Assembly (NCBI RefSeq): GCF_028369055.1 | Contig: NZ_JAQNCZ010000004.1 | Coordinates: 124,001-188,000 of the forward strand | Direction: 5' to 3' | DNA length: 64,000 bases | Origin: Cognatishimia sp. SS12 | GTDB lineage: Bacteria; Pseudomonadota; Alphaproteobacteria; Rhodobacterales; Rhodobacteraceae | In this document: positions 23,413-36,836 of the stretch, one piece after another | Layout of the letters: every line of letters begins with the position of its first letter | Numbering within the stretch: position 1 is the first letter of the stretch | Program-made: the position numbers and the translations under genes | Notes under the pieces: model-generated | The model's input: only the letters and a program-made list of their open reading frames with translations | The model's database searches: none | Told to the model about the DNA's origin: nothing

Positions 23413-24282
23413 TTAGAAGCGATAAAACCGCTGCGCGGTGCCGCCAAAGACTGCGGCGTGATCGGTGGCCGGCACCAGCGCCTCATAAGCCGCGATCAAC
23501 GTGGAATAGTCAGATGACAGCGAATCGACCGGAAAGTTTGAACCGAACATCACCCGCTGCGCGCCAAACTGCGCCAATACTTCGCTGACGATCGGCGCAA
23601 TCTTGGCAGCGGTCCAATCATGGTCAAACATGCCAAGCCCCGAAAGCTTGCAGCTGACATGGGGCAGATCGGACAATAACCGCAACGCCCGCGCCCAGGC
23701 CTTCAACCCGTCAGGGGTGCGATCATGCGGAGATCCTGCGTGGCACAGGACAACAGGCGTCTGCGGCGTGTCCTTTAGAATGTCGGCCGTGGCCTCCATC
23801 AATTCTGGCAACAACTGCAGATCAAAGCTCAGCCCCCGCGCGCCGAGCTGCGCCAGACCTTTGGCAAACGCCGGGTTGGTCAACAGATCATTGGTGCCGG
23901 TCTTGGCATCCTCGCCCGGGGCGCGGCCGATGATTTGCCGCACACCGCGCAGGCTTGGCAGCGCGGATAGTGCGGCCAATCGGTCCAGCAGCGCGTCATC
24001 CGTCAGATCGCAGGCCGCAACCTGCACCATCGGCCAATCCGGGTTGGCCGCAGCCACGGCGTCGACCCATCGGGCCTCGGCCAGAGGGTCAGCCGCGCCC
24101 ACCTGGATGTGCACCGAGCCACGCATCCCATGCTGGCGCGCATCGGCGGAAAATTCGGGCAGCAGGTAATTGCGCTGGATCGGTGTCGGGTCGCCGAAGA
24201 ACCGCGGCGCGCCTTTTTCCATCAGCCATGGATAGCTGACCGCATCCAGATCCCAGAGATGATGATGAGCATCAATGCGCAT
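23413..24282 (-). CDS. Amidohydrolase-family TIM-barrel hydrolase (lactonase-like)
   Basis: The 289-residue protein opens with DAHHHLWD (metal-binding HxH), has CHAGSPHD near residue 185 and ends with FGSNFPVD near 250, where the catalytic Asp lies. This is the amidohydrolase_2 branch of sugar lactonases and 2-pyrone-4,6-dicarboxylate lactonase relatives. It would hydrolyse a lactone or ester in the cytoplasm. It overlaps the upstream snoaL-like gene by 11 bp, forming the left arm of the LacI-type divergent locus. The substrate is unknown, though a lactone would fit the SDR and HisD-like dehydrogenases in the right arm. Confidence 0.82.
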   Translation of the reverse strand: MRIDAHHHLWDLDAVSYPWLMEKGAPRFFGDPTPIQRNYLLPEFSADARQHGMRGSVHIQVGAADPLAEARWVDAVAAANPDWPMVQVAACDLTDDALLDRLAALSALPSLRGVRQIIGRAPGEDAKTGTNDLLTNPAFAKGLAQLGARGLSFDLQLLPELMEATADILKDTPQTPVVLCHAGSPHDRTPDGLKAWARALRLLSDLPHVSCKLSGLGMFDHDWTAAKIAPIVSEVLAQFGAQRVMFGSNFPVDSLSSDYSTLIAAYEALVPATDHAAVFGGTAQRFYRF

Positions 24283-25279
24283 GGCTTACAATCCCGGTTG
24301 TGCGTTCAAGAATGTCCACCCCCTGCTGTTTCCAGAAATGCAGCAAGTCGATGAAGACCCAGTTTTCCTTTAGCTTGTCACCATCGCGGCGGTACATGTC
24401 GATGACGCGGAATTCGCCGGGCCGCTCACTGGCGGGCATGCCCATAAAGCCGCCCTTGGGAATGGCGGTAAAATTCGGCCAGCCAAAGAAGCCGCCATAC
24501 TGCCCCTCGCCGATGCGGCAGATATGGTTGGTTTTGCTGCGTTCCTTGAAAGAGCCGCGGAACGGCCCGGCATGCTGTTTGGCGTAGCGCTCGATTGTAT
24601 AGGTCGACCCAATGCCCGCCGGGCCCCACCACAGCATGTCTTTGTGCCAGGTGCGCGCAAGCTCTTCCTCCAGTGGCAGGCCACTGTTCCATTGCCCCAG
24701 ATCCTTCACCATGCGGTCGATTGCGGCCAGTGTCTCCTGCCCTTCGTGCGGCGGGCGATCCTCAAAGATCAGGCCATTGTGGCTGTCGGGACCTGGCTGC
24801 ACAAAATGCGCGCCGGTCTGTGGGGGAAAGGGCTGCAACCCGGCCTGCATCATCAGATGCGGGATGTCAAAATACATCGCGGTATCGACGATTTTATCGC
24901 CTTCGACGCGATGAAACGCGCTGAAGCGCAGAAACGCCATTTTTCCCGTGGGTGGAATGCCCAGCCAGGGTTTATCAAACAGCCCGATCAGATGGCCCAT
25001 GGTGGCCACCCAGACTCCGCCCGTGTCAGGATAGACATTGTCACCGGCAAAAAAGATATCAAGCCGGTGCTGAAGGCTGGTCAGGCTGGATTTCAGCGGG
25101 ACCCAAAAGCGCTCGGCCACTTGGTCGGGGTCGCGAATCTCATTGAACGGATGATAGCCGCGCCAGCGCGCATCCGACTCATGGAACAGGTCCATAACGC
25201 CAGAGACTTCATTTATGTTAGCGGTATCTAATGCGGAGTAGAAAGTTTTCACGACTTTCTTGGCATTTTGAAAAGACAC
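24272..25279 (-). CDS. SnoaL/NTF2-like protein, two domains (paralogue 1)
   Basis: A GTG at 25279 is chosen because AAGGAAA lies nine bases upstream; an in-frame ATG at 25393 would start inside the operator region. The 335-residue protein appears to contain two NTF2/SnoaL-like cone domains, about residues 1-165 and 190-330. Each carries the F-x(n)-DG(D/K)K/L-I-x-(D/E)-x-W/Y strand signature (HRVEGDKIVDTAMYFDIP; YRRDGDKLKENWVFIDLL). SnoaL proteins are cyclases or hydrolases without cofactors; many are uncharacterised. It is first in the left arm, facing the importer operon across two LacI-type palindromes. Specific activity is unknown. Confidence 0.75.
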   Translation of the reverse strand: MSFQNAKKVVKTFYSALDTANINEVSGVMDLFHESDARWRGYHPFNEIRDPDQVAERFWVPLKSSLTSLQHRLDIFFAGDNVYPDTGGVWVATMGHLIGLFDKPWLGIPPTGKMAFLRFSAFHRVEGDKIVDTAMYFDIPHLMMQAGLQPFPPQTGAHFVQPGPDSHNGLIFEDRPPHEGQETLAAIDRMVKDLGQWNSGLPLEEELARTWHKDMLWWGPAGIGSTYTIERYAKQHAGPFRGSFKERSKTNHICRIGEGQYGGFFGWPNFTAIPKGGFMGMPASERPGEFRVIDMYRRDGDKLKENWVFIDLLHFWKQQGVDILERTTGIVSHAH

Positions 25280-25349
25280 GTCTTTTTCCTTTGAAAATAT
25301 ATGCTTGCGGCAATTCCATCCATGACGTGAATCGTGCCGCAGCACAATA

Positions 25350-25367
25350 TTTGCATACGTATGCAAA
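25350..25367. promoter_or_regulatory. LacI-type operator 1: TTTGCATACGTATGCAAA
   Basis: An 18-bp perfect palindrome with central CG, the hallmark of LacI/GalR-family operators. It lies 71 bp from the left-arm start codon and 81 bp from the right-arm one. The likely regulator is the LacI-family protein encoded at 33.7 kb in the same locus. Confidence 0.85.
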
Positions 25368-25373
25368 AATGTC

Positions 25374-25402
25374 TTGCCAGAAGTGACACCCAAGAATTAA
25401 CG
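25374..25402 (+). promoter_or_regulatory. Possible promoter of the ABC importer operon
   Basis: TTGCCA at 25374-25379 and TTAACG at 25397-25402 are 17 bp apart. The -10 is poor, but the predicted start falls inside operator 2, which would make repression straightforward. Confidence 0.35.
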
Positions 25403-25403
25403 T

Positions 25404-25425
25404 TTTTTGCAAGCGTATGCAAAAA
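25404..25425. promoter_or_regulatory. LacI-type operator 2: imperfect copy of operator 1
   Basis: TTTGCAAGC/GTATGCAAA at 25406-25423 repeats operator 1 with two mismatched pairs near the centre, extended by flanking T/A pairs. The centres are 56 bp apart, about five helical turns, suitable for cooperative binding or looping by a LacI-family tetramer or two dimers. Confidence 0.75.
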
Positions 25426-25447
25426 CAAGTCCAGCTAGGGGGACCAT

Positions 25448-26497
25448 ATGGCCGAGATTCAATTGCGCAACGTTGGCAAACGTTGGGGTAGCTTTGTTGG
25501 CGTTGACAATTTTGACCTTACGATCGCCGACAAGGAGTTCCTCGTGCTGCTTGGGCCTTCCGGCTGCGGCAAGACAACCACCATGCGCATGATTGCGGGT
25601 CTGGAGGATGTGACCGAGGGGGAGATTTTGATTGACGGCAAGCCGGTCAATGATCTGGAGCCCAAGGATCGCGATGTCGCGATGGTGTTCCAAAGCTATG
25701 CGCTATATCCGAACCTGAACGTGTATGAAAACATCCGCTTCCCATTGCGGGTGCGCGGCATCGACCAGTCCACCCATGATGAAAAGGTGCGCCGCGCCTC
25801 GGCCATGGTTGAACTGGATGACTTCCTGCACCGCAAGCCAGCGGAATTGTCAGGTGGTCAGCGCCAGCGTGTTGCCCTGGCCCGCGCCATCGTGCGCGAG
25901 CCCAACGTCTTTTTGATGGACGAGCCGCTGTCCAACCTGGACGCCAAACTGCGGGTGTCCACCCGCGCGCAAATCAAAAACCTGAGCCACGAACTGGCGG
26001 TCACCACCATCTATGTGACCCACGATCAGATCGAAGCCATGACGCTTGCTGACCGGGTTGTCGTGATGAAAGGCGGCATTGTGCAGCAGGTCGGCTCGCC
26101 CACCGATATTTATGACAAACCGGCCAACGCCTTTGTCGCCAGCTTTATCGGTTCACCAGCGATGAACCTGATTGATGGTGAAATGAAAAACGGCACTTTT
26201 ACTGCGCCGCATGTTTCGATTTCGAACCTCACCGGGCCTGACGGCCCCATGACGCTCGGCTTCCGGGCGGAAGACGCGGTTGTGGTCGCAAATGACGGGC
26301 AGATCAACGCGCCGATCTACACCATGGAACTTTTGGGCGACGCCACAATGGTTTCGGTGCGCATCGGCGGGGCGCTGGTCTCTGTCAAAGCAGACAAAAC
26401 CTATCGCGCCGAGATCGACGATACCGTGTCGATCCAGGTGCCTTCGGAACATTGCCATTTGTTTGATGCTCAAACAGGTGCGCGAGTCGGGGACTAA
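25448..26497 (+). CDS. ABC importer ATP-binding protein, MalK/UgpC type
   Basis: The 349-residue protein has Walker A GPSGCGKTT (near residue 37), signature LSGGQRQRVALARA, Walker B VFLMDEPLSNLDAKLR, and the switch His in YVTHDQIEAM. A C-terminal OB-type regulatory domain follows after about residue 240. This is the CUT1 carbohydrate importer ATPase. TAGGGGGA precedes the ATG. It opens the right arm and energises the permease pair encoded downstream. The substrate cannot be read from the ATPase. Confidence 0.93.
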   Translation: MAEIQLRNVGKRWGSFVGVDNFDLTIADKEFLVLLGPSGCGKTTTMRMIAGLEDVTEGEILIDGKPVNDLEPKDRDVAMVFQSYALYPNLNVYENIRFPLRVRGIDQSTHDEKVRRASAMVELDDFLHRKPAELSGGQRQRVALARAIVREPNVFLMDEPLSNLDAKLRVSTRAQIKNLSHELAVTTIYVTHDQIEAMTLADRVVVMKGGIVQQVGSPTDIYDKPANAFVASFIGSPAMNLIDGEMKNGTFTAPHVSISNLTGPDGPMTLGFRAEDAVVVANDGQINAPIYTMELLGDATMVSVRIGGALVSVKADKTYRAEIDDTVSIQVPSEHCHLFDAQTGARVGD

Positions 26498-26510
26498 TCC
26501 CCCATAAACT

Positions 26511-26557
26511 TCCGCGAAAAGCGCGGAGACTTGGGTGCAGGCTTCGAAGCTGCACCC
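26511..26557 (+). repeat. Tandem hairpins between the ATPase and solute-binding protein genes
   Basis: TCCGCG-N5-CGCGGA (26511-26527) is followed by GGGTGCAG-N9-CTGCACCC (26533-26557). Neither has a proper T-run. Together with the hairpin after the binding-protein gene, they would bracket that cistron with RNA structure, which commonly gives it higher mRNA stability than its neighbours. Confidence 0.6.
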
Positions 26558-26582
26558 CGAACATAACAGGGAGAATGTTAAT

Positions 26583-27809
26583 ATGTTCATGAAAAAACTT
26601 GCTCTTGCGGGCGGTATGGCGCTGCTGTCGAGCACCGCAGTTGCCGCATGTGAAATCAATGCGCGCGTCAATATCGTCGGCAACGAATTCCCGGCGATCC
26701 AAACCGTTGGCGCAGGCGCGGCGGAATGTTCCGGTGGCGACGTGTCCTCCAACCTCACTGCCGACCACCAGAAAATCAATCTGGCCGGTATGCAGGGCGA
26801 CCCAGCAGAATACACTTCTGCAATCATCGCGAACTCTTCCATCGTTGCGCTGATCAACGAAGATGTCATCCGTCCGCTTGACGATCTGGTCGCTCAGTAC
26901 GGCGATACGCTGCAGAAAAACCAGCTGATCACCATTGATGGTAAAGTTATGGCTGTGGCCTTTATGGCCAACGCGCAGCACCTCGTTTATCGCAAAGACG
27001 TGCTGGAACAGGTCGGTGCAGAGCCACCAAAGTCCTACGAAGAGATGCTGGAAGTGGCCAAGATGATCCGCGACCAGGGCATCATGGAAAACCCGGTTGG
27101 CGGTGCCTATGCTGCGGGCTGGAACCTCGCGCAGGAATTCAACAACATGTTCATGGGCTATGGCGGCGAGCACTTTAAAGCCGGCACAGCAGAGCCAAAC
27201 ATCAACACCGAAGCAGGCGTAAAAGCGCTGGAAATGATGAAAGCGCTGTCTGAGTACATGAACCCGGACTTCCTGACACATGACTCCAACGCGACCAACG
27301 CCGAATACCGCGCGGGTAACGTTGCGCTGATGAACATGTGGGGCAGCCGTGCGGCGACCCTGACCGAAGCTGACGGTGTTCCTCAAGAGGTCGTCGACGG
27401 TTTCGCAATCGCTGGCCCTATGACCGTGGGCGGTGGTGAAACCCCTGCCTCTACCCTGTGGTGGGATGGCTGGACCGTCGCGAAAAACATCAGCGACGAA
27501 GAAGCGGCCTCAACCTTTATCGCCCTGACCCATGCAATCCGCCCAGCGATCCTGGAAGACGAAGAAATCTCCACGCAGGCGGTTTGGCTGATCGACGGCT
27601 ATGACCCAACCCCAGCGGCCGAAGGTGTATTTGCGGCGGCGCAAGCCAACACAATCCCTTACCCAATGCTGCCATTCATGGGCCTGATGCACACTGCACT
27701 GGGTGCTGAGCTGACCGACTTCATGCAAGGTAAGGAAAGCGCAGAGCAAGCTCTGAAAGACGTTGAAGCGGCTTATATCGCTGCAGCCAAAGAAAAAGGC
27801 TTCCTCTAA
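26583..27809 (+). CDS. ABC importer periplasmic solute-binding protein (CUT1 type)
   Basis: The start at 26583 follows CAGGGAGA. The 408-residue protein has a Sec signal peptide (KKLALAGGMALLSSTAVAA, cleavage near residue 20) and is exported to the periplasm. The mature part resembles cluster B sugar-binding proteins: KINLAGMQGD..., [27 protein letters not shown] near residue 140, GNVALMNMWGSRAATL near 245. Codon choice is more biased to preferred codons than in neighbours, in line with high expression. Ligand unknown; it is the best protein for finding the locus's substrate. Confidence 0.9.
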   Translation: MFMKKLALAGGMALLSSTAVAACEINARVNIVGNEFPAIQTVGAGAAECSGGDVSSNLTADHQKINLAGMQGDPAEYTSAIIANSSIVALINEDVIRPLDDLVAQYGDTLQKNQLITIDGKVMAVAFMANAQHLVYRKDVLEQVGAEPPKSYEEMLEVAKMIRDQGIMENPVGGAYAAGWNLAQEFNNMFMGYGGEHFKAGTAEPNINTEAGVKALEMMKALSEYMNPDFLTHDSNATNAEYRAGNVALMNMWGSRAATLTEADGVPQEVVDGFAIAGPMTVGGGETPASTLWWDGWTVAKNISDEEAASTFIALTHAIRPAILEDEEISTQAVWLIDGYDPTPAAEGVFAAAQANTIPYPMLPFMGLMHTALGAELTDFMQGKESAEQALKDVEAAYIAAAKEKGFL

Positions 27810-27822
27810 GGACCTTTTCCCT

Positions 27823-27845
27823 GAGAGGGGGCCCTGCCCCCTCTC
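27823..27845 (+). repeat. Strong hairpin after the solute-binding protein gene
   Basis: A perfect 10-bp stem GAGAGGGGGC/GCCCCCTCTC with a 3-nt loop, not followed by a T-run. It lies 13 bp after the stop codon and 27 bp before the next gene, where it may stabilise the upstream cistron or attenuate transcription into the permease genes. Confidence 0.75.
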
Positions 27846-27872
27846 ACCCCTGACTTATTTGGTGGAGCAGCC

Positions 27873-28898
27873 ATGAAACATCGTACCTTCTTCTGGTTTT
27901 TCCTGCCAACGGGCCTGGCAATGATCCTGTTCATCGCTGCCCCATTGGTATCGATTATCACTCAGTCGCTGTTCGCGCCACATGAGGCCGTTTTCGTCAC
28001 CGTCGAAAACTGCGGCCCGTTCGGATGCAAAGAGGAAACAACCATTGACCAAAGTGCCACCGCAGCCCTGCGCGAGGCCGAACCAATGGGCAGATTTGTT
28101 GGCCTGTCTGTTTACCTCGATCGCGGCCACCTGGCTGTGGCAGAGGTCGCAGAGGCATGGCGCACATCCGAAAGCATCGGCGAATTCTTTGGCACCATCT
28201 ACAACCTGCCATTCTACCGCGCGCTGGCCTTTACGCTGACCTACACCTTTGTCTGCACGCCGCTGCTGATCATCCTTGGCTTTTTCATCGCCATTTCGGT
28301 GAACTCGCTGCATCGCCACCTGAAAGGGTTGGTTATCTTTTTCTCATTGCTGCCCATGATTGTGACGCCGCTTGTTGGCTCGTTGATCCTGTTCTGGATG
28401 ATCGATAGCCGCGGGGTGCTGGGCAACTTGCTATCGTACTTGGCTGATGATCCTGATCTCTCGCTCAAGGCCTCCTCGCCGCTGATGTGGACCTCGATCA
28501 TCATCTACGGGATCTGGAACTCTGCTCCCTTCGCCTTTGTGGTTTTCTATGCCGGGCTTCAAACCCAGCCGAAAGACACATTGGAAGCCGCCCAGATTGA
28601 TGGCGCAACCCGCTGGCAGCAGATCCGTTTTGTGACCATTCCGCATCTGATGCCGCTTGTGACCTTTGTTGCGCTTATTCAGCTGATGGATAACTTCCGC
28701 GTCTTCGAACCGATTGTCGGCTTCAGCGCCCAGGCCCACGCCACATCGCTCAGCTGGATCATCTTCAATGACCTCGGCGGCGAAACCCAACAATTGTCTG
28801 CGGCTGCCACGACCTCGGTTCTCACCGTGATCGGTGTCGCAATTCTACTGTCGCCCGTGCTGGTACGCACCTGGCGTGACTTCAAAGGACGGAGCTAA
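27873..28898 (+). CDS. ABC importer permease 1 (MalF-like)
   Basis: The 341-residue protein has an N-terminal helix, a ~110-residue periplasmic insert (with a NCGPFGC cysteine pair), and five more helices. The EAA loop reads EAAQIDGATRWQQIRFVTIPHLMP near residues 232-255, where it docks on the ATPase. It belongs to the binding-protein-dependent transport permease family for carbohydrate-type substrates. GGTGGAG precedes the ATG. The long first periplasmic loop is longer than in many MalF/UgpA proteins of this size. Confidence 0.9.
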   Translation: MKHRTFFWFFLPTGLAMILFIAAPLVSIITQSLFAPHEAVFVTVENCGPFGCKEETTIDQSATAALREAEPMGRFVGLSVYLDRGHLAVAEVAEAWRTSESIGEFFGTIYNLPFYRALAFTLTYTFVCTPLLIILGFFIAISVNSLHRHLKGLVIFFSLLPMIVTPLVGSLILFWMIDSRGVLGNLLSYLADDPDLSLKASSPLMWTSIIIYGIWNSAPFAFVVFYAGLQTQPKDTLEAAQIDGATRWQQIRFVTIPHLMPLVTFVALIQLMDNFRVFEPIVGFSAQAHATSLSWIIFNDLGGETQQLSAAATTSVLTVIGVAILLSPVLVRTWRDFKGRS

Positions 28899-28901
28899 AC
28901 C

Positions 28902-29783
28902 ATGTCGAGTGCTGCTAATCGTAAACCGCTCCCGCTGAAAATCGCACTTTGGAGCTTCGTCGCTATCTGGCTGATGATGGCCGCCTTCCCTTTCCTTTGG
29001 ACATTGTGGGGCAGCTTCAAGGTCGAGCTTGATTTCTTTTCCATCGCCGATTGGACCAATGCGCTGACTGGCGATAACACCGAGCGCACCCATGGCACGC
29101 CCTTCACCGGGGCCGGCTATGAAGGCGCATGGGTAAAAGAAGGCTTTCTGCGCAACATCATCAACACGGGGATTGTGTGTATCTTCGTGGTCTGCACCTC
29201 TTTGACCATCGGGACACTCGGCGGCTATGCGCTGTCGCGCTCGGGCTTCAAATATGTCTTTTGGCTGCTGATCGCGGCGCTGATCTTCCGCGCCATCCCG
29301 CCGATCACGCTGGTGTCCGGCTACCTGCCTGTTTTCTTTCAGTACAATGCCTGGGGCTATCTGCCGACCGCGATCATCGTGCTTGTGGCGATCAACCAGC
29401 CGTTCACCCTGTGGATGCTGCATTCCTTCTTTGAATCGATCCCAAAAGAGCTGGACGAAAGTGCAAAAGTGGATGGCTGCACACAGTTCCAGGCCTTCCG
29501 CCGTGTCATCATCCCGGTGATGTGGCCAGGCGTGATCACCACGGGTCTGTTCAGCTTCTTGCTGGCCTATAACGACTTTGCCGTAACCTCGATGATCCTG
29601 AACGAAGACAACCGCACCATGGTGCCTCAGATCGCGGCCTTCCTTGGCACGACACAGACCGAAGGCAACGTGATGTTCGCCGTCGCAGCCGTTGTTTCAG
29701 CCACTGCGCCACTCTTTGTGTTGGTCCTCTTCTTCCAGCGCCAGATCGTGTCTGGCCTGACTGCAGGGGCCGTTAAAGGATGA
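28902..29783 (+). CDS. ABC importer permease 2 (MalG-like)
   Basis: The 293-residue protein has six helices, with the EAA loop at ESAKVDGCTQFQAFRRVIIPVMWPG near residues 185-210. It starts three bases after permease 1 and should form the heterodimeric channel with it. Like its partner it carries a periplasmic insert after helix 1 (about residues 40-80). Confidence 0.9.
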   Translation: MSSAANRKPLPLKIALWSFVAIWLMMAAFPFLWTLWGSFKVELDFFSIADWTNALTGDNTERTHGTPFTGAGYEGAWVKEGFLRNIINTGIVCIFVVCTSLTIGTLGGYALSRSGFKYVFWLLIAALIFRAIPPITLVSGYLPVFFQYNAWGYLPTAIIVLVAINQPFTLWMLHSFFESIPKELDESAKVDGCTQFQAFRRVIIPVMWPGVITTGLFSFLLAYNDFAVTSMILNEDNRTMVPQIAAFLGTTQTEGNVMFAVAAVVSATAPLFVLVLFFQRQIVSGLTAGAVKG

Positions 29784-29829
29784 GTTCAAATTCCCGGCAC
29801 GGCGCGATGGCGCGTCATCCGGCGCTCAA

Positions 29830-29904
29830 CAGAATGCCAAGAGACTTTTTGGAGCTTGGGTGATCCCCTCTCTTCCTCCCCTCCAAAACTCTCTTAGCAT
29901 TCTG
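29830..29904 (+). repeat. Long inverted repeat (25/24 nt arms, 26-nt loop) before a snoaL-like gene
   Basis: Left arm 29830-29854 and right arm 29881-29904 are complementary except for two mismatches and one bulged T. The arms run CAGAATGC...TTTTGGAG and CTCCAAAA...GCATTCTG. The RNA hairpin would end two bases before the AAAGGA ribosome site of the 176-residue SnoaL-like gene at 29918. It has no terminator T-run. Likely roles are RNase III processing, uncoupling of importer and enzyme expression, or translational control. It is too long and asymmetric for an ordinary operator. Confidence 0.85.
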
Positions 29905-29917
29905 AAAGGAAAGACAC

Positions 29918-30448
29918 ATGAAAGGCTCTCGCCCCGAGCAGGCCGTGTTGACACGCGACACCGACCTGACAAAAACCGAAGAAACCCGCGCCGTGATTGA
30001 AACCATGGTGGATGGTCTGAACGATCACCGGATTGATGATATCGGCGATTTCTTCAGCCAAGGGTTCCGCTGGATGGGCAACCAAGGCTGCGGCACAAAA
30101 ACCGGCCTGCAAGAGTTTCAAGACAATTGGCAGCGCCCCTTCCAAGCGGCGTTTTCCGATAAGGTCTGCATCGACGAAGCCCGGCTTTACATGGGCGAAT
30201 GGGCCGCTGCATTTGGTCGCCAAGAAGCGACCCACAGCGGAGAATTTCTGGGGATTGCCCCAACCGGCAAGCGGGTGGAGATCCGCTACATGGACTTTTG
30301 GAAAGTGGTCGACGGCAAGATTGTCGACAATTGGGTGAATGTGGATTTCGCCCATGTGGCGGCGCAATTGGGCGTCGATCTTTTCAACGGCCATGGCTGG
30401 GAAGCATTTGATAGCGGCGAAAAGACTCCGCCGCGTCCCGACAACTAA
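29918..30448 (+). CDS. SnoaL/NTF2-like protein, single domain (paralogue 2)
   Basis: The 176-residue protein consists of one NTF2/SnoaL-like domain. Recognisable parts are [48 protein letters not shown] near residues 28-75, and [26 protein letters not shown] near 125-150. It is about half the size of its three locus paralogues. The ATG follows AAAGGAAA directly downstream of the long inverted repeat. It may form a dimer, or pair with a two-domain paralogue; the reaction is unknown. Confidence 0.78.
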
Positions 30449-30459
30449 GGAACAAAACG

Positions 30460-31791
30460 ATGACCATCGAATATCTGAAACGCGGCAAACCCGAAGCGGA
30501 TCGGGCGGAAGATGATGCGAAGACCCGCGCCACTGTCGAAGCGACGCTGAAAGACATCGGTGCGCGCGGCGATGCGGCCGTACGGGAGCTGTCGGAAAAA
30601 TTCGACAACTACTCCCCCGCATCGTTCCGGTTGAGCCAGCAAGAGATCGACGATCTGATGGCGCAGCTGTCCGATCGCGAGCTGGCAGATATCAAATTCG
30701 CGCAGGAACAAGTGCGCAATTTCGCCCAGGCGCAACGCGATTCCATGTTGGATATCGAGGTCGAAACCATGCCCGGTGTGATCCTGGGTCACAAAAACAT
30801 CCCCGTGCAATCGGTCGGCTGTTACGTGCCGGGCGGCAAGTTCCCCATGGTGGCGTCGGCACATATGTCCGTCGCCACCGCGTCAGTGGCGGGCGTGCCA
30901 CGTATCATCGCCTGCACCCCCCCCTTCAAAGGCAAGCCGAACCCGGCCGTGATTGCGGCGATGCATCTGGGCGGCGCGCATGAAATTTACGTCATGGGCG
31001 GCATTCAGGCGATTGGCGCGATGGCGCTGGGGACAGAAACCATTGATCCGGTGCATATGCTGGTCGGGCCGGGCAACGCCTTTGTTGCCGAAGCCAAACG
31101 CCAGCTCTTTGGCCGTGTGGGTATCGATCTTTTCGCTGGGCCAACAGAAACCATGGTCATCGCGGATGAAACCGCCGCGGACGCTGAACTTTGCGCCACT
31201 GACCTCTTGGGTCAGGCAGAGCATGGGTATAATAGCCCCTGCGTTCTGCTGACCAACAGCAAGAAGCTGGCCGAAGAGACCCTGAGCGAGATTGATCGCA
31301 TTCTTGGCATTCTGCCCACCGCTGATACCGCGCGCGTCAGCTGGGATGAATATGGTGAAATCATCGTGTGTGACACCTATGAGGAAATGCTTGAGGTCGC
31401 CGATGACATCGCCTCTGAGCACGTTCAGGTGATGACTGACCGCGATGATTGGTTCCTTGAAAACATGACCTGCTATGGCGCGCTGTTCCTTGGCCCACGG
31501 ACCAATGTGTCAAACGGCGACAAGGTGATCGGCACCAACCACACGCTGCCGACCAAAAAGGCCGGGCGTTACACAGGCGGGCTCTGGGTTGGTAAATACC
31601 TGAAAACCCACAGCTATCAGAAAGTCACCACCGACGAAGCCGCAACGCTGATCGGTGAATATGGCTCCCGGCTCTGCATGCTGGAAGGTTTTGTGGGCCA
31701 TGCCGAGCAATGCAATATCCGCGTGCGTCGGTATGGCGGGGTGAACGTTCCCTATGGCACCGCAGCGCCCTATCGCGACGCGGCCGAATAA
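30460..31791 (+). CDS. HisD-family NAD-dependent dehydrogenase (HpsN-like, catabolic)
   Basis: The 443-residue protein belongs to the histidinol dehydrogenase fold. Key residues are conserved: Gln252 and His255 in LLGQAEHG, the catalytic pair Glu320-His321 in IASEHVQV, and [13 protein letters not shown] near residue 355. It also has the NAD-binding [17 protein letters not shown]. The N-terminus ([12 protein letters not shown]) and the [22 protein letters not shown] stretch are closer to sulfopropanediol 3-dehydrogenase (HpsN) than to biosynthetic HisD as I recall them. No his gene or sulfonate lyase lies nearby, so the substrate is probably a different primary alcohol oxidised to a carboxylate. 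Confidence 0.82.
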
Positions 31792-31801
31792 CATCACCGT
31801 G

Positions 31802-31821
31802 GGGGCGGCGCTGGCCGCCCC
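31802..31821 (+). repeat. Intercistronic hairpin after the hisD-like gene
   Basis: A perfect 8-bp stem GGGGCGGC/GCCGCCCC closes a 4-nt loop, in the 51-bp gap before the next snoaL-like gene. There is no T-run; it probably acts as a 3'-end stabiliser or partial terminator. Confidence 0.6.
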
Positions 31822-31842
31822 GCTTATCCTTTTGAGGCATTC

Positions 31843-32895
31843 ATGGACCGCCACAGCAAACACAAAGCCCTGATCGCGCCGCTGCGCGCAGCGATGTATG
31901 ACTTTGACCCCAAAGGGGTTCAGGCCGCCCTTGCTGCAATCGCGGCACCGGATGCTTTGTTTCGCTTGTCGGCCCCTTTTGGTGACACAACCGGCCCAGA
32001 GTCGTATTACGACACGGCTTTTGTCGGCCTTTTGACGGCTTGGCCGGACCTTGAGCGCCGCGACTACATTGTCATGGCGGGTGCCGACGAAGATGGGGCC
32101 GATTGGGTTGGCTGCGGCGGCTATTATACCGGCACTTTCCTAGCCCCTTGGCTCGACATTCCGCCCACCGGCCATCAGGTCGCGATGCGGTTTCACGAAT
32201 TCTATCGTTTCCAAGATGGCCAAATCGTCGAGATGCAAGCGATCTGGGACATTCCCGAGGTCATGATTCAGGCCCAGGCCTGGCCACTTGCGCCCTCGCT
32301 CGGGCGTGAATGGCGTGCCCCTGCCCCGGCCACGCAAGATGGCATTATCACCGGCCCCCGCAATGAGGCACAAAGCGCCGCGTCCTGTCAGTTGATCATG
32401 GACATGCTGGCGCATTTGATCCGCTACCCGGCGCAGGGTGGCCCCGAGGTGATGGACATGCCCCGGTTCTGGCACCCAAAAATGAACTGGTATGGCCCCG
32501 GAGGCATCGGCACAGCGCGCGGCATTTCGGGCTTTCGCCACTGGCATCAGACGCCGTTTCTGGCCGCGATGCCGGACCGGGGCCAATACCCCAATGAGAT
32601 CACCCATCATTTCTTTGGCGATGCCAATTACGCGGCTGTCACCGGCTGGCCGAACATGGCCCAGACGCTGAGCGGCGGCGGCTGGCTTGGACTGCCGGCC
32701 ACAGGCGCGAAAATCACCCTGCGGTCGCTGGATTTCTGGCGTGTCGAAAACGGCAAGATCCGCGAAAACTGGGTGCTTGTGGACTTGATCGACATTTATG
32801 CGCAATTGGGGCTGGACGTTTTCAGCCGCCTGCGTGAATTCAACAAGGCGCGCAATCTCGGCGCGCTCAGCATTTCAGACGGATTATCAGCATGA
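31843..32895 (+). CDS. SnoaL/NTF2-like protein, two domains (paralogue 3)
   Basis: The 350-residue protein shows the same two-domain layout as paralogue 1. Domain 1 holds YRFQDGQIVEMQAIWDIPEVMIQAQAWPL near residue 125. Domain 2 holds WHPKMNWYGPGGIGTARGISGFRHWHQTPFLAAMPD near 205-245 and FWRVENGKIRENWVLVDLIDIYAQLGLDV near 300. Compare WWGPAGIGSTYTIERYAKQHAGPF in paralogue 1, so both arms of the locus encode relatives of one family. Its stop overlaps the SDR start (ATGA). Activity is unknown. Confidence 0.75.
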   Translation: MDRHSKHKALIAPLRAAMYDFDPKGVQAALAAIAAPDALFRLSAPFGDTTGPESYYDTAFVGLLTAWPDLERRDYIVMAGADEDGADWVGCGGYYTGTFLAPWLDIPPTGHQVAMRFHEFYRFQDGQIVEMQAIWDIPEVMIQAQAWPLAPSLGREWRAPAPATQDGIITGPRNEAQSAASCQLIMDMLAHLIRYPAQGGPEVMDMPRFWHPKMNWYGPGGIGTARGISGFRHWHQTPFLAAMPDRGQYPNEITHHFFGDANYAAVTGWPNMAQTLSGGGWLGLPATGAKITLRSLDFWRVENGKIRENWVLVDLIDIYAQLGLDVFSRLREFNKARNLGALSISDGLSA

Positions 32896-33656
32896 CCAGC
32901 CTTCCCCGTACCCCCAGTTTTGATCTTTCCGGTAAGAAAGTACTTGTCACCGGGGCATCGTCGGGCATCGGGCTGGGCTGCGCCGTGGCCATCGCCGAAG
33001 CGGGCGGCAGCGTGGTTTGCGCCGCGCGCGGGGCGGATCGGCTGCAAGAAGCTGTCGCAGCCATGCAGGCCGCAGGCTATACCGCCAGCGCTCTCTCGCT
33101 TGATCAAGGCGATGTCGCCGCCGTCAGCGACGTGATGGCGCGCGAAAGTTTTGATGTCGTGGTCAATTCTGCCGGCATTGCCCGCCACAGCGCCGCCACC
33201 GACACCACCCCAGAAGATTACGATGCGGTGATGCATATCAATCTGCGGTCGGCCTATTTTCTGTCCGCCCGTGCGGCGGCAGCCATGATGGCGGCGGGCA
33301 AGCCCGGCTCGATCATCCACATCTCTTCGCAGATGGGTCATGTGGGCGGCATCGACCGCGCGCTTTATTGCGCAGGCAAACATGGGCTGGAAGGCATGAT
33401 CAAATCCATGGCCATGGAATGGGGCAAGCAGCGCGTGCGCATCAATTCGATCTGCCCTACTTTCATTCGCACCCCCCTGACCCAATCGACCTTTGACAAC
33501 CCTGAGCGGTTTGACTGGATCATGAGCAAAATCAAACTTGATCGCGTCGGCGAGGTTGAGGACATCATGGGCGCGGTACAATATCTGGCGTCCGATGCCT
33601 CAGCCATGGTCACAGGCACCTCGCTCTTGATCGACGGCGGGTGGACTGCGGGCTGA
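32892..33656 (+). CDS. Short-chain dehydrogenase/reductase
   Basis: The 254-residue classical SDR has the cofactor motif TGASSGIGLG (residues 17-26), NSAG near 94, catalytic Ser in HISSQMGHVGG and the YCAGK motif (Tyr and Lys) near 158-162. The C-terminus GTSLLIDGGWTAG is typical. The sequence resembles gluconate 5-dehydrogenase/3-oxoacyl reductase-like SDRs acting on polyols or hydroxyacids. It overlaps the snoaL-like gene upstream and the LacI gene downstream (TGATG), so these three are tightly coupled. It probably oxidises or reduces a pathway hydroxyl group. Confidence 0.9.
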   Translation: MTSLPRTPSFDLSGKKVLVTGASSGIGLGCAVAIAEAGGSVVCAARGADRLQEAVAAMQAAGYTASALSLDQGDVAAVSDVMARESFDVVVNSAGIARHSAATDTTPEDYDAVMHINLRSAYFLSARAAAAMMAAGKPGSIIHISSQMGHVGGIDRALYCAGKHGLEGMIKSMAMEWGKQRVRINSICPTFIRTPLTQSTFDNPERFDWIMSKIKLDRVGEVEDIMGAVQYLASDASAMVTGTSLLIDGGWTAG

Positions 33657-34690
33657 TGGCAGAGAAGATCACATCGCTTCAGGTCGCGCAACGCGCTGGC
33701 GTCAGCCAGTCGGCGGTGTCGCGCGTCTTCACGCCCGGAGCGTCGGTCTCAAAGAAAACAGCAGACAAGGTGCGCAAAGCCGCGCGCGAGCTCGGCTATC
33801 GCCCCAATGTTCTGGCGCGCGCCATGGTCAAAGGCCAAAGCCGCATCATCGGCCTCGTTGTCGGTTATCTCGACAATTACTTCTATCCCAAAGCCATGGA
33901 GCTTTTGTCCACCAGCTTGCAGGAACAGGGCTATCACCTGTTGATCTTCATGGCCCCTCAGACCGGCGAGAATATCGACGGTGTGATGGATGAAATTCTG
34001 GATTATCAAGTGGATGGCATTGTGCTTGCTTCGGTTGCCATGTCCTCTGAAATTTCCTCGCGCTGCCAGCAGGCCGGCGTGCCGGTGGTCTTGTTCAACC
34101 GAAACCAGGATATCGACGGCATCACCTCTGTCACCTCAGACAACTATGCAGGGGGGCGTAAGGTCGCCGAGTTTTTGCTGGCCGCCGGGCATGAAAAAAT
34201 CGGCTATATCGCCGGCTGGGTCGGGGCATCGACGCAGCGCGACCGCGAGGCCGGATTTCGAGCGGCGCTGCATCAGGCCGGGCGCGACATCGACGCTTAT
34301 GAAATTGGCAACTTCAATACAGAAACTGCCCGTCAGGCAGCCAGAAACATGTTTGACACCGCCCCGGAAAAACGCCCGGATGCTTTGTTCGTCGCCAACG
34401 ACCATATGGCGATTGCCACGCTGGATGTGCTGCGGTTTGAACTTGGCTTGCGCGTGCCCGAAGACGTGTCGGTCATTGGCTATGATGATGTGCCCCCGGC
34501 CAGCTGGCCCGCCTATAACCTGACCACCATGCGCCAACGCGCGCGCACCATGGTTGATGAAACTGTGAATGCTCTGATGGAGCATATCCAATCCCCAGAT
34601 ATTGCCCGCCCACGACGTGTCGCCATTGATGGTCCGCTGATCGTGCGCACCTCTGCCCGCCTGCCCCAAGGCTGGACACCCAAAGGATAA
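33656..34690 (+). CDS. LacI-family transcriptional regulator of the locus
   Basis: The ATG at 33656 overlaps the SDR stop. The 344-residue protein has the LacI HTH (SLQVAQRAGVSQSAVSRVFTPGASVSKKTADKVRKAARELGYRPN, residues 6-50), a hinge helix (NVLARAMVKGQS), and a periplasmic-binding-protein-type effector domain with FVANDHMAIATLDVLRFELGLRVPEDVSVIGYDD. It most likely binds the two palindromes at 25350 and 25406 and is released by a pathway intermediate. It is embedded mid-operon, so it would be autoregulated. Confidence 0.93.
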   Translation: MAEKITSLQVAQRAGVSQSAVSRVFTPGASVSKKTADKVRKAARELGYRPNVLARAMVKGQSRIIGLVVGYLDNYFYPKAMELLSTSLQEQGYHLLIFMAPQTGENIDGVMDEILDYQVDGIVLASVAMSSEISSRCQQAGVPVVLFNRNQDIDGITSVTSDNYAGGRKVAEFLLAAGHEKIGYIAGWVGASTQRDREAGFRAALHQAGRDIDAYEIGNFNTETARQAARNMFDTAPEKRPDALFVANDHMAIATLDVLRFELGLRVPEDVSVIGYDDVPPASWPAYNLTTMRQRARTMVDETVNALMEHIQSPDIARPRRVAIDGPLIVRTSARLPQGWTPKG

Positions 34691-34694
34691 GACT

Positions 34695-35681
34695 ATGAAG
34701 GGTTTTGACCCAAAATTCCGCGACTTCCCCGAGTATATCATCGGCATCACCAAAGAGATTTGGGAAGATCGCGGCATCGCCACCTTGCACGACTATTACG
34801 CGCCCGACATCGTGGTGCGTATGCCCGGCTCTGTCTCGACCGGCAATGCCGGCGTGATCGGGGCCACCATGGCGACATTGGCGGAATTTCCGGATCGGAC
34901 ACTGTTTGGCGAAGATGTGATCTGGTCCGGCACCCCTGAAGAGGGCATGCTGAGTTCGCATCGCATCACCTCAACCGCTACGCACACCGGCGATGGCGCT
35001 TTTGGCAAGGCCACGGGCACCAAATTGACCTATCGCATTCTGGCGGATTGCCACGCGATCAACAATGCGATCAACGACGAATGGCTGATCCGCGACAACG
35101 GCGCGATTGTGCGCCAGATGGGCTGGGAGCCCGCACAATTTGCCCGCGACCAGATCGCCCGCGAAGGCGGCCCGGACACCTGCGTCAAACCGCTGACCCC
35201 CAAGAATGACATCGACGGCCCCTATAAGGGCACCGGCAATGCAAATGAATGGGGCCAACGCTATGCGGATGTGATCACCCGGATCATGAACGCTGACCTC
35301 GCGGTGATCCCAACCGAATATGACCGCGCGGTGAACACCGAATATCCCGGCGGCGTGTCCGGCTTCAGCTGGTCCAGCGTTGATATCTTCTGGATGGGGC
35401 TGCGCGCCGCCTTCCCCAATGCAAAATTCACCATTGAACATCAGATCGGGCGCGAAGATCCGATGATGCCGCCACGCGCGGCCATCCGCTGGAGCCTGCA
35501 TGGCAAACACGAAGGCTGGGGCAGCTTTGGCGCGCCGACCGGCGCAGAGGTCTACGTGCTGGGCATCAGCCACGCCGAATTTGGCGCGTTGATCGCGGGG
35601 GAGCCAAGAATTCGCCGCGAATACACATTGTTTGACGAAATCGCAATCTGGAAACAGATTGCGTTGCAGACCGGAGCCTAA
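34695..35681 (+). CDS. SnoaL/NTF2-like protein, two domains (paralogue 4)
   Basis: The 328-residue protein begins MKGFDPKFRDFPEYIIGITKEIWEDRGIATLHDYYAPDIVVRMPGS, a standard SnoaL/ester-cyclase N-terminus. It has a second NTF2-like half after about residue 190 (ADVITRIMNADLAVIPTEYDRAVNTEYPGG... WSSVDIFWMG...PNAKFTIEHQIGREDP). It is the most divergent of the four locus paralogues. It directly follows the LacI gene by four bases. Whether it is catalytic or ligand-binding is not known. Confidence 0.75.
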   Translation: MKGFDPKFRDFPEYIIGITKEIWEDRGIATLHDYYAPDIVVRMPGSVSTGNAGVIGATMATLAEFPDRTLFGEDVIWSGTPEEGMLSSHRITSTATHTGDGAFGKATGTKLTYRILADCHAINNAINDEWLIRDNGAIVRQMGWEPAQFARDQIAREGGPDTCVKPLTPKNDIDGPYKGTGNANEWGQRYADVITRIMNADLAVIPTEYDRAVNTEYPGGVSGFSWSSVDIFWMGLRAAFPNAKFTIEHQIGREDPMMPPRAAIRWSLHGKHEGWGSFGAPTGAEVYVLGISHAEFGALIAGEPRIRREYTLFDEIAIWKQIALQTGA

Positions 35682-35867
35682 CGTGAGTCACAATCGGGCC
35701 CTCTATTGCCCCCGGACGGGGCTGTTTGAAACGCAGAGCACACGGCGTTTTCACGCCTTTTGCCAGGGGCTGCGCGCGCGCCGCCTTAATCTGCGCCCGC
35801 CCGGACGCGGGATCTGAACCCACCGGCCCTGGGGCCATTCAGATCCACAACCACAAAGGTACATGAC
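35682..35867 (+). other. 186-bp gap between paralogue 4 and the bicupin gene
   Basis: Largest gap in the right arm. It contains a GGCCC-rich hairpin (GGCCC-TGG-GGCC at about 35825-35836) and a GTG-started 44-codon Arg-rich frame (35683-35817) that I do not believe. No copy of the LacI palindrome is visible. A secondary promoter for the last four genes could lie here. Confidence 0.4.
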
Positions 35868-36836
35868 ATGACCAATTCTTCGATCCAAAGCCGCATCGTC
35901 CGTTACGGCGAGCTGCAGCCCTGCAAAACCGCCTTCATCGACGCCCACACACCGGGCAGCGACCAAAAGGAAAACTTCACCATCATCGGCGGCGGCGTGT
36001 CCGAAAGCCCCGATCAGCACGTGCATATCACCGACAAGATCGGCTTTAACATCGGCGCGGCGGGTCAACCGCCCAAATGCCGCAACTCGCTGCATTCTCA
36101 CACCACGGCCGAAGTCTTTTTCGTGGCCAAGGGCCGCTGGCGCTTTTTCTGGGGGCGCTATGGCACTGCGGGCGAATTCATCGCCGAGGAAGGCGATATC
36201 TTTAACATCCCAACCGGAATCTTCCGCGGCTTTGAGAACGTCGGCCAGGACTACGGCATGATCATGTCGATGCTCGGCGGCGATGACGCTGGCGGCGGTG
36301 TCACCTGGGCCCCGCAGGTCATTGAGGACGCGCAGGCCCATGGCCTCGTGCTTGGGGAAAACGGCGTGCTCTATGACAGCAAGAAAGGACAGACCCTGCC
36401 CCACAACGTGGGACCGATGCCACTTCTGACCGAAGACGAGCTGAAGAACTACCCAGAGGTCCCGGTCGAAGATGTGGTGGGCACCTACATCGCCCGTTTC
36501 TGGGATCTGATGGCGCTTTCGGCCAAGAAACCTGCGGTGGTTATTGGTGAAAACGGTATGATCAAAGACAAGCCGGGCTTTGAGGTTGATTTCCTGAGCC
36601 GCGGCTCTGCGGTTGAGACCGCGGTAAAGGCTGACAAACCGGTGGTTCTGATGCCGGCAAGCGGTCATTGGCGCATCAGCATCGAGGACGTCACCACCAC
36701 TTTGTCAAACGGCGACACTGCCCTGGTGCTGCCGGGCGAAAGCTATTCGGTTGCGCCTTCCATGACTGGGACTGCAGGTCTATACCGCATCACCGCCACA
36801 GATGATCCGGCAGGCCCGACCTGGACCGGCAACTAA
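35868..36836 (+). CDS. Bicupin protein
   Basis: The 322-residue protein has an N-terminal cupin with metal-type ligands (LHSHTTAEVFFVAKGRWRFFWG, residues 74-95, giving His, His and Glu). Motif 2 reads GDIFNIPTGIFRGFENVG, where the usual His is replaced by Arg. A second, ligand-poor cupin occupies residues 255-320 (VVLMPASGHWRISIEDVTTTLSNGDTALVLPGESY). Such bicupins act as isomerases, oxygenases or binding proteins. Its place between a snoaL-like and a metE-like gene suggests a catabolic step on the imported compound. Confidence 0.8.
   Translation: MTNSSIQSRIVRYGELQPCKTAFIDAHTPGSDQKENFTIIGGGVSESPDQHVHITDKIGFNIGAAGQPPKCRNSLHSHTTAEVFFVAKGRWRFFWGRYGTAGEFIAEEGDIFNIPTGIFRGFENVGQDYGMIMSMLGGDDAGGGVTWAPQVIEDAQAHGLVLGENGVLYDSKKGQTLPHNVGPMPLLTEDELKNYPEVPVEDVVGTYIARFWDLMALSAKKPAVVIGENGMIKDKPGFEVDFLSRGSAVETAVKADKPVVLMPASGHWRISIEDVTTTLSNGDTALVLPGESYSVAPSMTGTAGLYRITATDDPAGPTWTGN

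Follow-up and report, generated by a model that had tools for sequence, protein, structure and literature searches.

An overlooked element, composed of a conserved micro-ORF and a co-varying hairpin, was found inside an operon in the window, by which is meant the whole stretch of 64,000 nucleotides of Cognatishimia sp. SS12 DNA analysed here, and it has no match in the libraries searched. The element is real, its anatomy is well supported by comparison with relatives, and the same bases appear to be under selection for the peptide as well as for the RNA fold. The peptide, of 24 residues with a 13-residue core that hardly varies, stands where importer genes meet enzyme genes, in bacteria that are for the most part marine. 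For its function, a cis-acting, translated intercistronic leader is proposed, whose ribosome would control formation of the hairpin and hence expression of the downstream snoaL gene, a mechanism to which we give about an even chance. The parts of the element and its neighbours are as follows.

28902-29783, + strand: ABC transporter permease gene (ORF, Pfam PF00528).
29780-29863, + strand: conserved small ORF of 27 codons, MSSNSRHGAMARHPALNRMPRDFLELG, present in 74 of 97 loci, with pN/pS of 0.265 over codons 2-24.
29813-29851, + strand: core of the small ORF, codons 12-24, RHPALNRMPRDFL, with pN/pS of 0.073.
29830-29854, + strand: left arm of the hairpin, 25 nt, from the last base of codon 17 to codon 25 of the small ORF.
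29855-29880, + strand: apical part or loop, 26 nt, C-rich, containing the small-ORF stop (29861-29863).
29881-29904, + strand: right arm of the hairpin, 24 nt, assigned from sequence, fold and arm co-variation.
29905-29910, + strand: AAAGGA, the Shine-Dalgarno (SD) of snoaL by sequence, just beyond the stem.
29918-30448, + strand: SnoaL-like gene (snoaL), the first downstream of the hairpin (PF07366, E 3.1e-21).
30460-31791, + strand: histidinol-dehydrogenase-like gene, next in the operon (PF00815, E 5.1e-133).

The ATG of the small ORF (29780-29782) overlaps the TGA stop of the permease gene (29781-29783) as ATGA, the left arm of the hairpin is itself small-ORF coding sequence, and the small-ORF TGA falls within the loop. 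The preliminary description had implied a noncoding gap at this place in the operon, which was wrong, as a small gene occupies most of it. The inverted repeat reported there was re-found at 29830-29904, with arms of 25 and 24 nt, a 26-nt loop, two mismatches and one bulge, giving 22 arm-to-arm pairs; the stem has no T-run, as had been stated, and the right arm ends two bases 5' of the AGGA in the AAAGGA ribosome site, with the snoaL ATG at 29918. The match of the arms is rare, since among the 25 longest of the 35 inverted repeats in the window (arms within 100 bases; seed of 8, ungapped) only this hairpin and a repeat at 25350-25423 combine arms of 20 nt or more with 90% complementarity. The absolute stability is ordinary: the region 29820-29920 folds at -31.8 kcal/mol (z -2.86, with 2 of 200 dinucleotide shuffles equally good), and an equal or better energy is reached by 1256 of the 2556 tiles of 101 nt on the + strand of the window. 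Absolute folding energy was therefore rejected as evidence of rarity, which is based instead on the match of the arms and on the relatives.

The relatives comprise 97 snoaL loci of Rhodobacterales, made up of 17 loci of a 30-locus set (the window's own included; L019-L031 were omitted for weak SnoaL matches) and the best 80 of 578 relatives. The small ORF was found in 74 of these 97 loci by the motif HPALN[RK][ML]P, a call by which diverged ORFs would be missed, and the carriers span many Rhodobacterales genera, as judged from record titles. The 74 ORFs give 72 unique sequences, L003/L046 and L006/L085 being the same loci taken twice, and 71 of these were used for pN/pS, with L059, which is one codon shorter, omitted. 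Purifying selection was found to be specific to the frame of the small ORF. In this frame pN/pS is 0.265 for codons 2-24, 0.478 for codons 2-11 and 0.073 for the core, as against 1.05 and 3.1 in the other two frames and 0.119 for codons 2-60 of snoaL; likewise, over 24 codons none of the 71 sequences has an internal stop in frame, and the other frames have one in 40 and 49 of them. The N-terminal part (codons 2-11) is thus loosely constrained. Within the core, nine residues (H13-R18 and P20-D22) are invariant in 21 chosen peptides. Beyond the core both sequence and length vary, and the peptides range from 24 to 47 residues. The stop of the small ORF moves accordingly among the 72 sequences, from the left arm (5) through the apex (17), the right arm (9) and the stretch after the stem (13) to the snoaL start (28), and the place of termination therefore seems irrelevant.

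A profile of the 21 peptides was run against 394 genomes of the family and gave 24 strong matches, with E of 1.1e-10 or lower, in 23 genomes; at most 21 or 22 candidates were scored per genome in the profile searches. After these comes, at 7e-6, a shortened relative with the core and without the N-terminal part, and the remainder lie at 0.0046 or worse. Among 385 genomes sampled from the class, two matches were obtained, one being the window's own and the other from the same family. The shortened small ORF, at L153 (G167:C80), reads MRHPARNRLPRDFI... and is followed by a different long local hairpin, and one genome (G399) carries two copies of the small ORF, L149 and L150, with different peptides on two contigs. 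Of five gene-annotated plasmid records viewed, whose gene table is incomplete, one lists the small ORF, as a hypothetical protein of Marinovum algicola (MALG_05013, AKP00141.1), and the other four do not. Pfam and NCBIfam gave no match for the two peptides tried, and the PDB none for the window's peptide. Rfam 15 at gathering score found two tRNAs only in the window and nothing at the hairpin, the best sub-threshold match being mir-9465 on the minus strand, which scores 23 bits where gathering requires 63. Searches of open-licence literature listed no title or abstract start about the small-ORF peptide or the element.

The start of the small ORF is joined to the gene before it. Overlap with the upstream stop was found in 72 of 74 loci, 37 at -4 and 35 at -1, as in a translationally coupled pair, and in L072 and L082 the upstream stop was not found by the spacing rule. 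An ATGA overlap at every start was considered and rejected: all 74 starts read NTGA because codon 2 is AGY, and the upstream stop lies at -4 in only 37. The AGY codon stands in 72 of 72 unique sequences, and one more relative, G436, has Gly there. Furthermore, 61 of 72 small ORFs have SD-like complementarity of their own upstream.

The gene before the small ORF varies. Besides the permease, it can be a dual SnoaL-domain gene lying after the permease, as seen for Ruegeria sp. SCSIO 43209 and R. conchae, or a third enzyme gene, which the small ORF overlaps in L009, L010 and L103 and which we take to end like a GMC-type oxidoreductase. The nearest matching upstream protein, which is not always the adjacent gene, was a permease in 63 loci and SnoaL-type in 8 plus 1, and was undetected in 2. 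Downstream, snoaL follows directly in 24 of 24 strong profile hits, and the distance from small-ORF start to snoaL start is 124-141 nt in the first set. Since the downstream gene is constant and the upstream gene variable, the element is best read as going with snoaL rather than with the transporter. In 23 of the 97 snoaL loci no ORF was found by the motif search; L050, among these, has a close permease.

Several observations were made on the surrounding genes. In the two Ruegeria loci in which a SnoaL-type gene lies between permease and small ORF (L143, 5837-6014, Ruegeria sp. SCSIO 43209; L144, 5798-5975, R. conchae), a 178-nt gap follows the permease, with predicted folds of -76 and -72 kcal/mol over 190 nt that carry no shuffle control. 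The region 24272-36836 of the window encodes four SnoaL-type proteins (24272-25393 on the minus strand, 29918, 31843 and 34695), the first so called by tblastn similarity only, together with the histidinol-dehydrogenase-like enzyme and an SDR. Two near-palindromic boxes, TTTGCATACGTATGCAAA (25350-25367) and TTTGCAAGCGTATGCAAA (25406-25423), precede the transporter ATPase gene (25448) and resemble operators on which the LacI-type regulator of 33641-34690 would act. A record titled Nocardioides marinus (L105) contains the Rhodobacterales operon and is probably a mislabelled assembly.

The hairpin recurs with the ORF. In the predicted folds of 71 of the 72 unique sequences, 15 or more pairs connect codons 17-26 with bases further downstream, and the base of the stem lies 13 or 14 nt 5' of the snoaL ATG in 42 of 72 (range 0-21). 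When everything but the left arm was shuffled, the native sequence ranked in the best 5% in 60 of 72 cases, with a mean z of -3.08. Swapping of arms without lineage control had a modest effect (mean z -1.12), the native arm beating the swapped mean in 58 of 72 and standing at or below the 5% rank in 16 of 72. In a set of 36 representatives with less than 80% likeness, the average stability of the native arm pairs exceeded that of all 5000 permutations (z -7.8). A second set consisted of 19 further loci drawn from peptide matches or plasmids, which are new in the sense of being non-identical to the first set, some being close relatives. Here too the native pairs beat all permutations (0 of 5000), in an average that includes L130 despite its misplaced snoaL start, set by hand on letters that are not a start codon. 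The arms co-vary between species in the manner of a conserved cis RNA structure, with relatedness controlled in part only.

Individual columns agree with this. With one base masked and the register set by its neighbours alone, the opposite base was matched more often than in 95% of permutations in 8 of the 11 left-arm columns that vary, without correction for multiple tests. These include the synonymous third position of codon 18, complementary in 19 of 20 (6 of 2000 permutations as good), the synonymous third position of codon 20 (15 of 2000) and, past the core, the first position of codon 25, complementary in 17 of 17 (2 of 2000). The three columns without significant match are positions 2 and 3 of codon 23 and position 1 of codon 24. 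From these comparisons, the hairpin is predicted to re-form across species with a different right arm and pairing kept. That the repeat is a remnant of a mobile palindrome, as had been suggested, or a product of chance, can be given a near-negligible probability: the near-perfect inverted repeat by itself would fit it and nothing else does, since a search of the genome (12 contigs, completeness 91%) for copies of the hairpin DNA, unlike what a REP-like repeat would give, returned one match, and the element keeps an orthologous position, with arm sequences that differ between species and pairing that is kept.

The preliminary description had named a lack of pairing at orthologous loci as its refutation, and the outcome favours structure in most loci and not in all, with 60 of 72 inside the 5% shuffle mark in the first set. 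Among the further loci, 9 of the 17 scored individually reach that mark and another two stand at 7-8%, the mean z being -2.22; the other 2 of 19 were unscored for want of a located start. The remaining 8 of 17 miss the 5% mark with the peptide intact, which argues that the peptide is the more constant half of the element. In 8 of 19 (L113, L119, L130, L152, L142, L143, L145 and L149), the native right arm beats at most 10 of 18 swapped arms. In the loci that lack the ORF, folding gives little indication of a hairpin (a mean z of -0.72, with 5 of 23 below -2), as compared with a mean z of -3.57 and 22 of 25 below -2 in loci with it, taken as the first 25 of the 74 by name with L003/L046 counted twice. 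This bears on the reading of the hairpin as an RNase barrier or as a processing site, the latter having been suggested in the preliminary description. The messages for transporter and enzymes would then differ in lifetime, and the ORF would be incidental. Such a site would suit a long stem without T-run between importer and enzyme genes; it leaves the frame-specific selection and the coding 5' arm unexplained and would not predict the scarcity of hairpins where the ORF is missing, and it is regarded as improbable.

More weight is due to the possibility that the small ORF encodes a functional small protein of about 24-47 residues acting in trans, for instance with the transporter or SnoaL as its target, and that the hairpin is a separate feature which happens to overlap it. 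The core, with pN/pS of 0.073 against 0.119 for codons 2-60 of snoaL, behaves like a segment of a working protein, the peptide is retained where the hairpin is weak, many of the ORFs (61 of 72) have their own upstream SD-like complementarity, and one record annotates it as a hypothetical protein. Such a protein would hardly be expected to have a length and C-terminus free to vary, to stand directly before snoaL at near-constant spacing in every one of the strong profile hits, or to have synonymous sites that match the right arm, and we consider it a possible but rather unlikely explanation. In either case, the conservation of the core beyond what pairing demands suggests a role for the peptide, on the ribosome or of its own.

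The translated leader, which we prefer, would work in the following manner. Ribosomes leaving the upstream gene would reinitiate on the small ORF, where they would meet the 5' arm of the hairpin and hold the hairpin open; with ribosomes absent or gone, the hairpin would close against the ribosome site of snoaL. The output of SnoaL and the following enzymes relative to the transporter would then be set by the rate at which the small ORF is translated, and this rate may in turn be governed by the nascent core peptide RHPALNRMPRDFL. Accessibility predictions are consistent with part of this scheme. With codons 17-27 masked, opening of the region from -20 to +13 of snoaL costs 8.8 versus 12.1 kcal/mol, being easier in 61 of 72 sequences and harder in 5. 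Opening from SD to ATG costs 4.0 kcal/mol with the left arm free versus 4.3 with it masked (easier in 22 of 72, harder in 37), and a full SD-like 5-mer precedes snoaL in 71 of 72. The stem leaves the SD uncovered and about equally free in both states, so that this is not the textbook design of SD masking. Besides the uncovered SD, the points that speak against the leader are the free position of the small-ORF stop, the further loci in which the hairpin scores poorly beside an intact peptide, the 23 of 97 snoaL loci where the motif search found no ORF, and the three left-arm columns without significant match.

Other classes of leader were compared with the element. An intrinsic terminator or attenuator was rejected, as TTTT is absent from the 16 nt that precede the snoaL ATG in all 72 sequences. 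Of the suggestions in the preliminary description, which are borne out in part, an attenuator-like element comes closest, in that the arms co-vary and overlap a conserved, translated-looking ORF, as under control by an intercistronic upstream ORF. An amino-acid leader-peptide attenuator does not fit either, since runs of three residues (SSS, AAA, LLL, GGG) occur in 19 of 74 peptides, in variable parts, and no single-residue codon run is conserved. Rho-dependent attenuation, in which the C-rich loop and right arm would form a Rho loading site shielded by ribosomes on the small ORF, a scheme already proposed for CruR, draws on the 38% C versus 20% G averaged over the apical and right region; this region is largely paired in prediction and the background frequency of such a C bias is uncontrolled, and the idea is judged very improbable. 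Among arrest-peptide features, the 74 peptides contain no RAPP/RAGP/RGPP-like motif, as defined in PMC10987492, the core having R-M/L-P-R-D, and no hydrophobic stretch suggesting a signal. A narrower and more speculative form of the leader, which we consider unlikely, is a nascent-peptide sensor of a new class, in which the core would slow the ribosome inside its own hairpin upon a small molecule handled by the operon and so tune enzyme versus transporter output. If this were true, the element would be a regulator common to Rhodobacterales that was overlooked since it is too small for annotation.

If the leader reading is right, the architecture is related to known control by upstream ORFs (uORFs), and its likeness to mgtQ, SecM, CruR and ilvB-II holds on the same condition. 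The mgtQ ORF of Salmonella lies in the 219-nt gap between mgtC and mgtB, encodes 8 residues with Asp/Glu codons, and by its own translation changes that of the gene downstream, through alternative stems, with the ribosome site inside a stem (PMC8092293). The element here would resemble it as a small ORF that occupies an intra-operon gap and shares bases with a stem-loop region close to the ribosome site of the following gene. It differs in its 24-47 residues, conserved 13-residue core, start on the upstream stop, one main stem and SD outside the stem. Arrest-peptide uORFs, SecM and the RAPP-type family among them, would share a short conserved segment near the end of the uORF and a stem-loop before the downstream gene, whereas here there is no RAPP-like motif (0 of 74), no signal-like hydrophobic stretch, and a downstream gene that is neither sec nor yidC (PMC10987492). 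CruR, which the small ORF would resemble as a translated uORF with an important peptide motif, precedes an uptake gene; it is 145 residues long, in contrast to the 24-47 residues of the small ORF, contains CXXC and RAPP, and exerts its effect by way of Rho (PMC9426467). The ilvB-II motif uORF of Corynebacterium encodes a leader peptide rich in branched-chain residues for transcription attenuation upstream of ilvB (PMC10272879). As with the present element, its conserved RNA region came first and the uORF was recognised afterwards; unlike it, the element has no conserved residue run and no T-run and stands in mid-operon (PMC10272879). Finally, the same start/stop overlaps appear in a review of translational coupling, for which two models are given, unfolding and reinitiation (PMC12548453).
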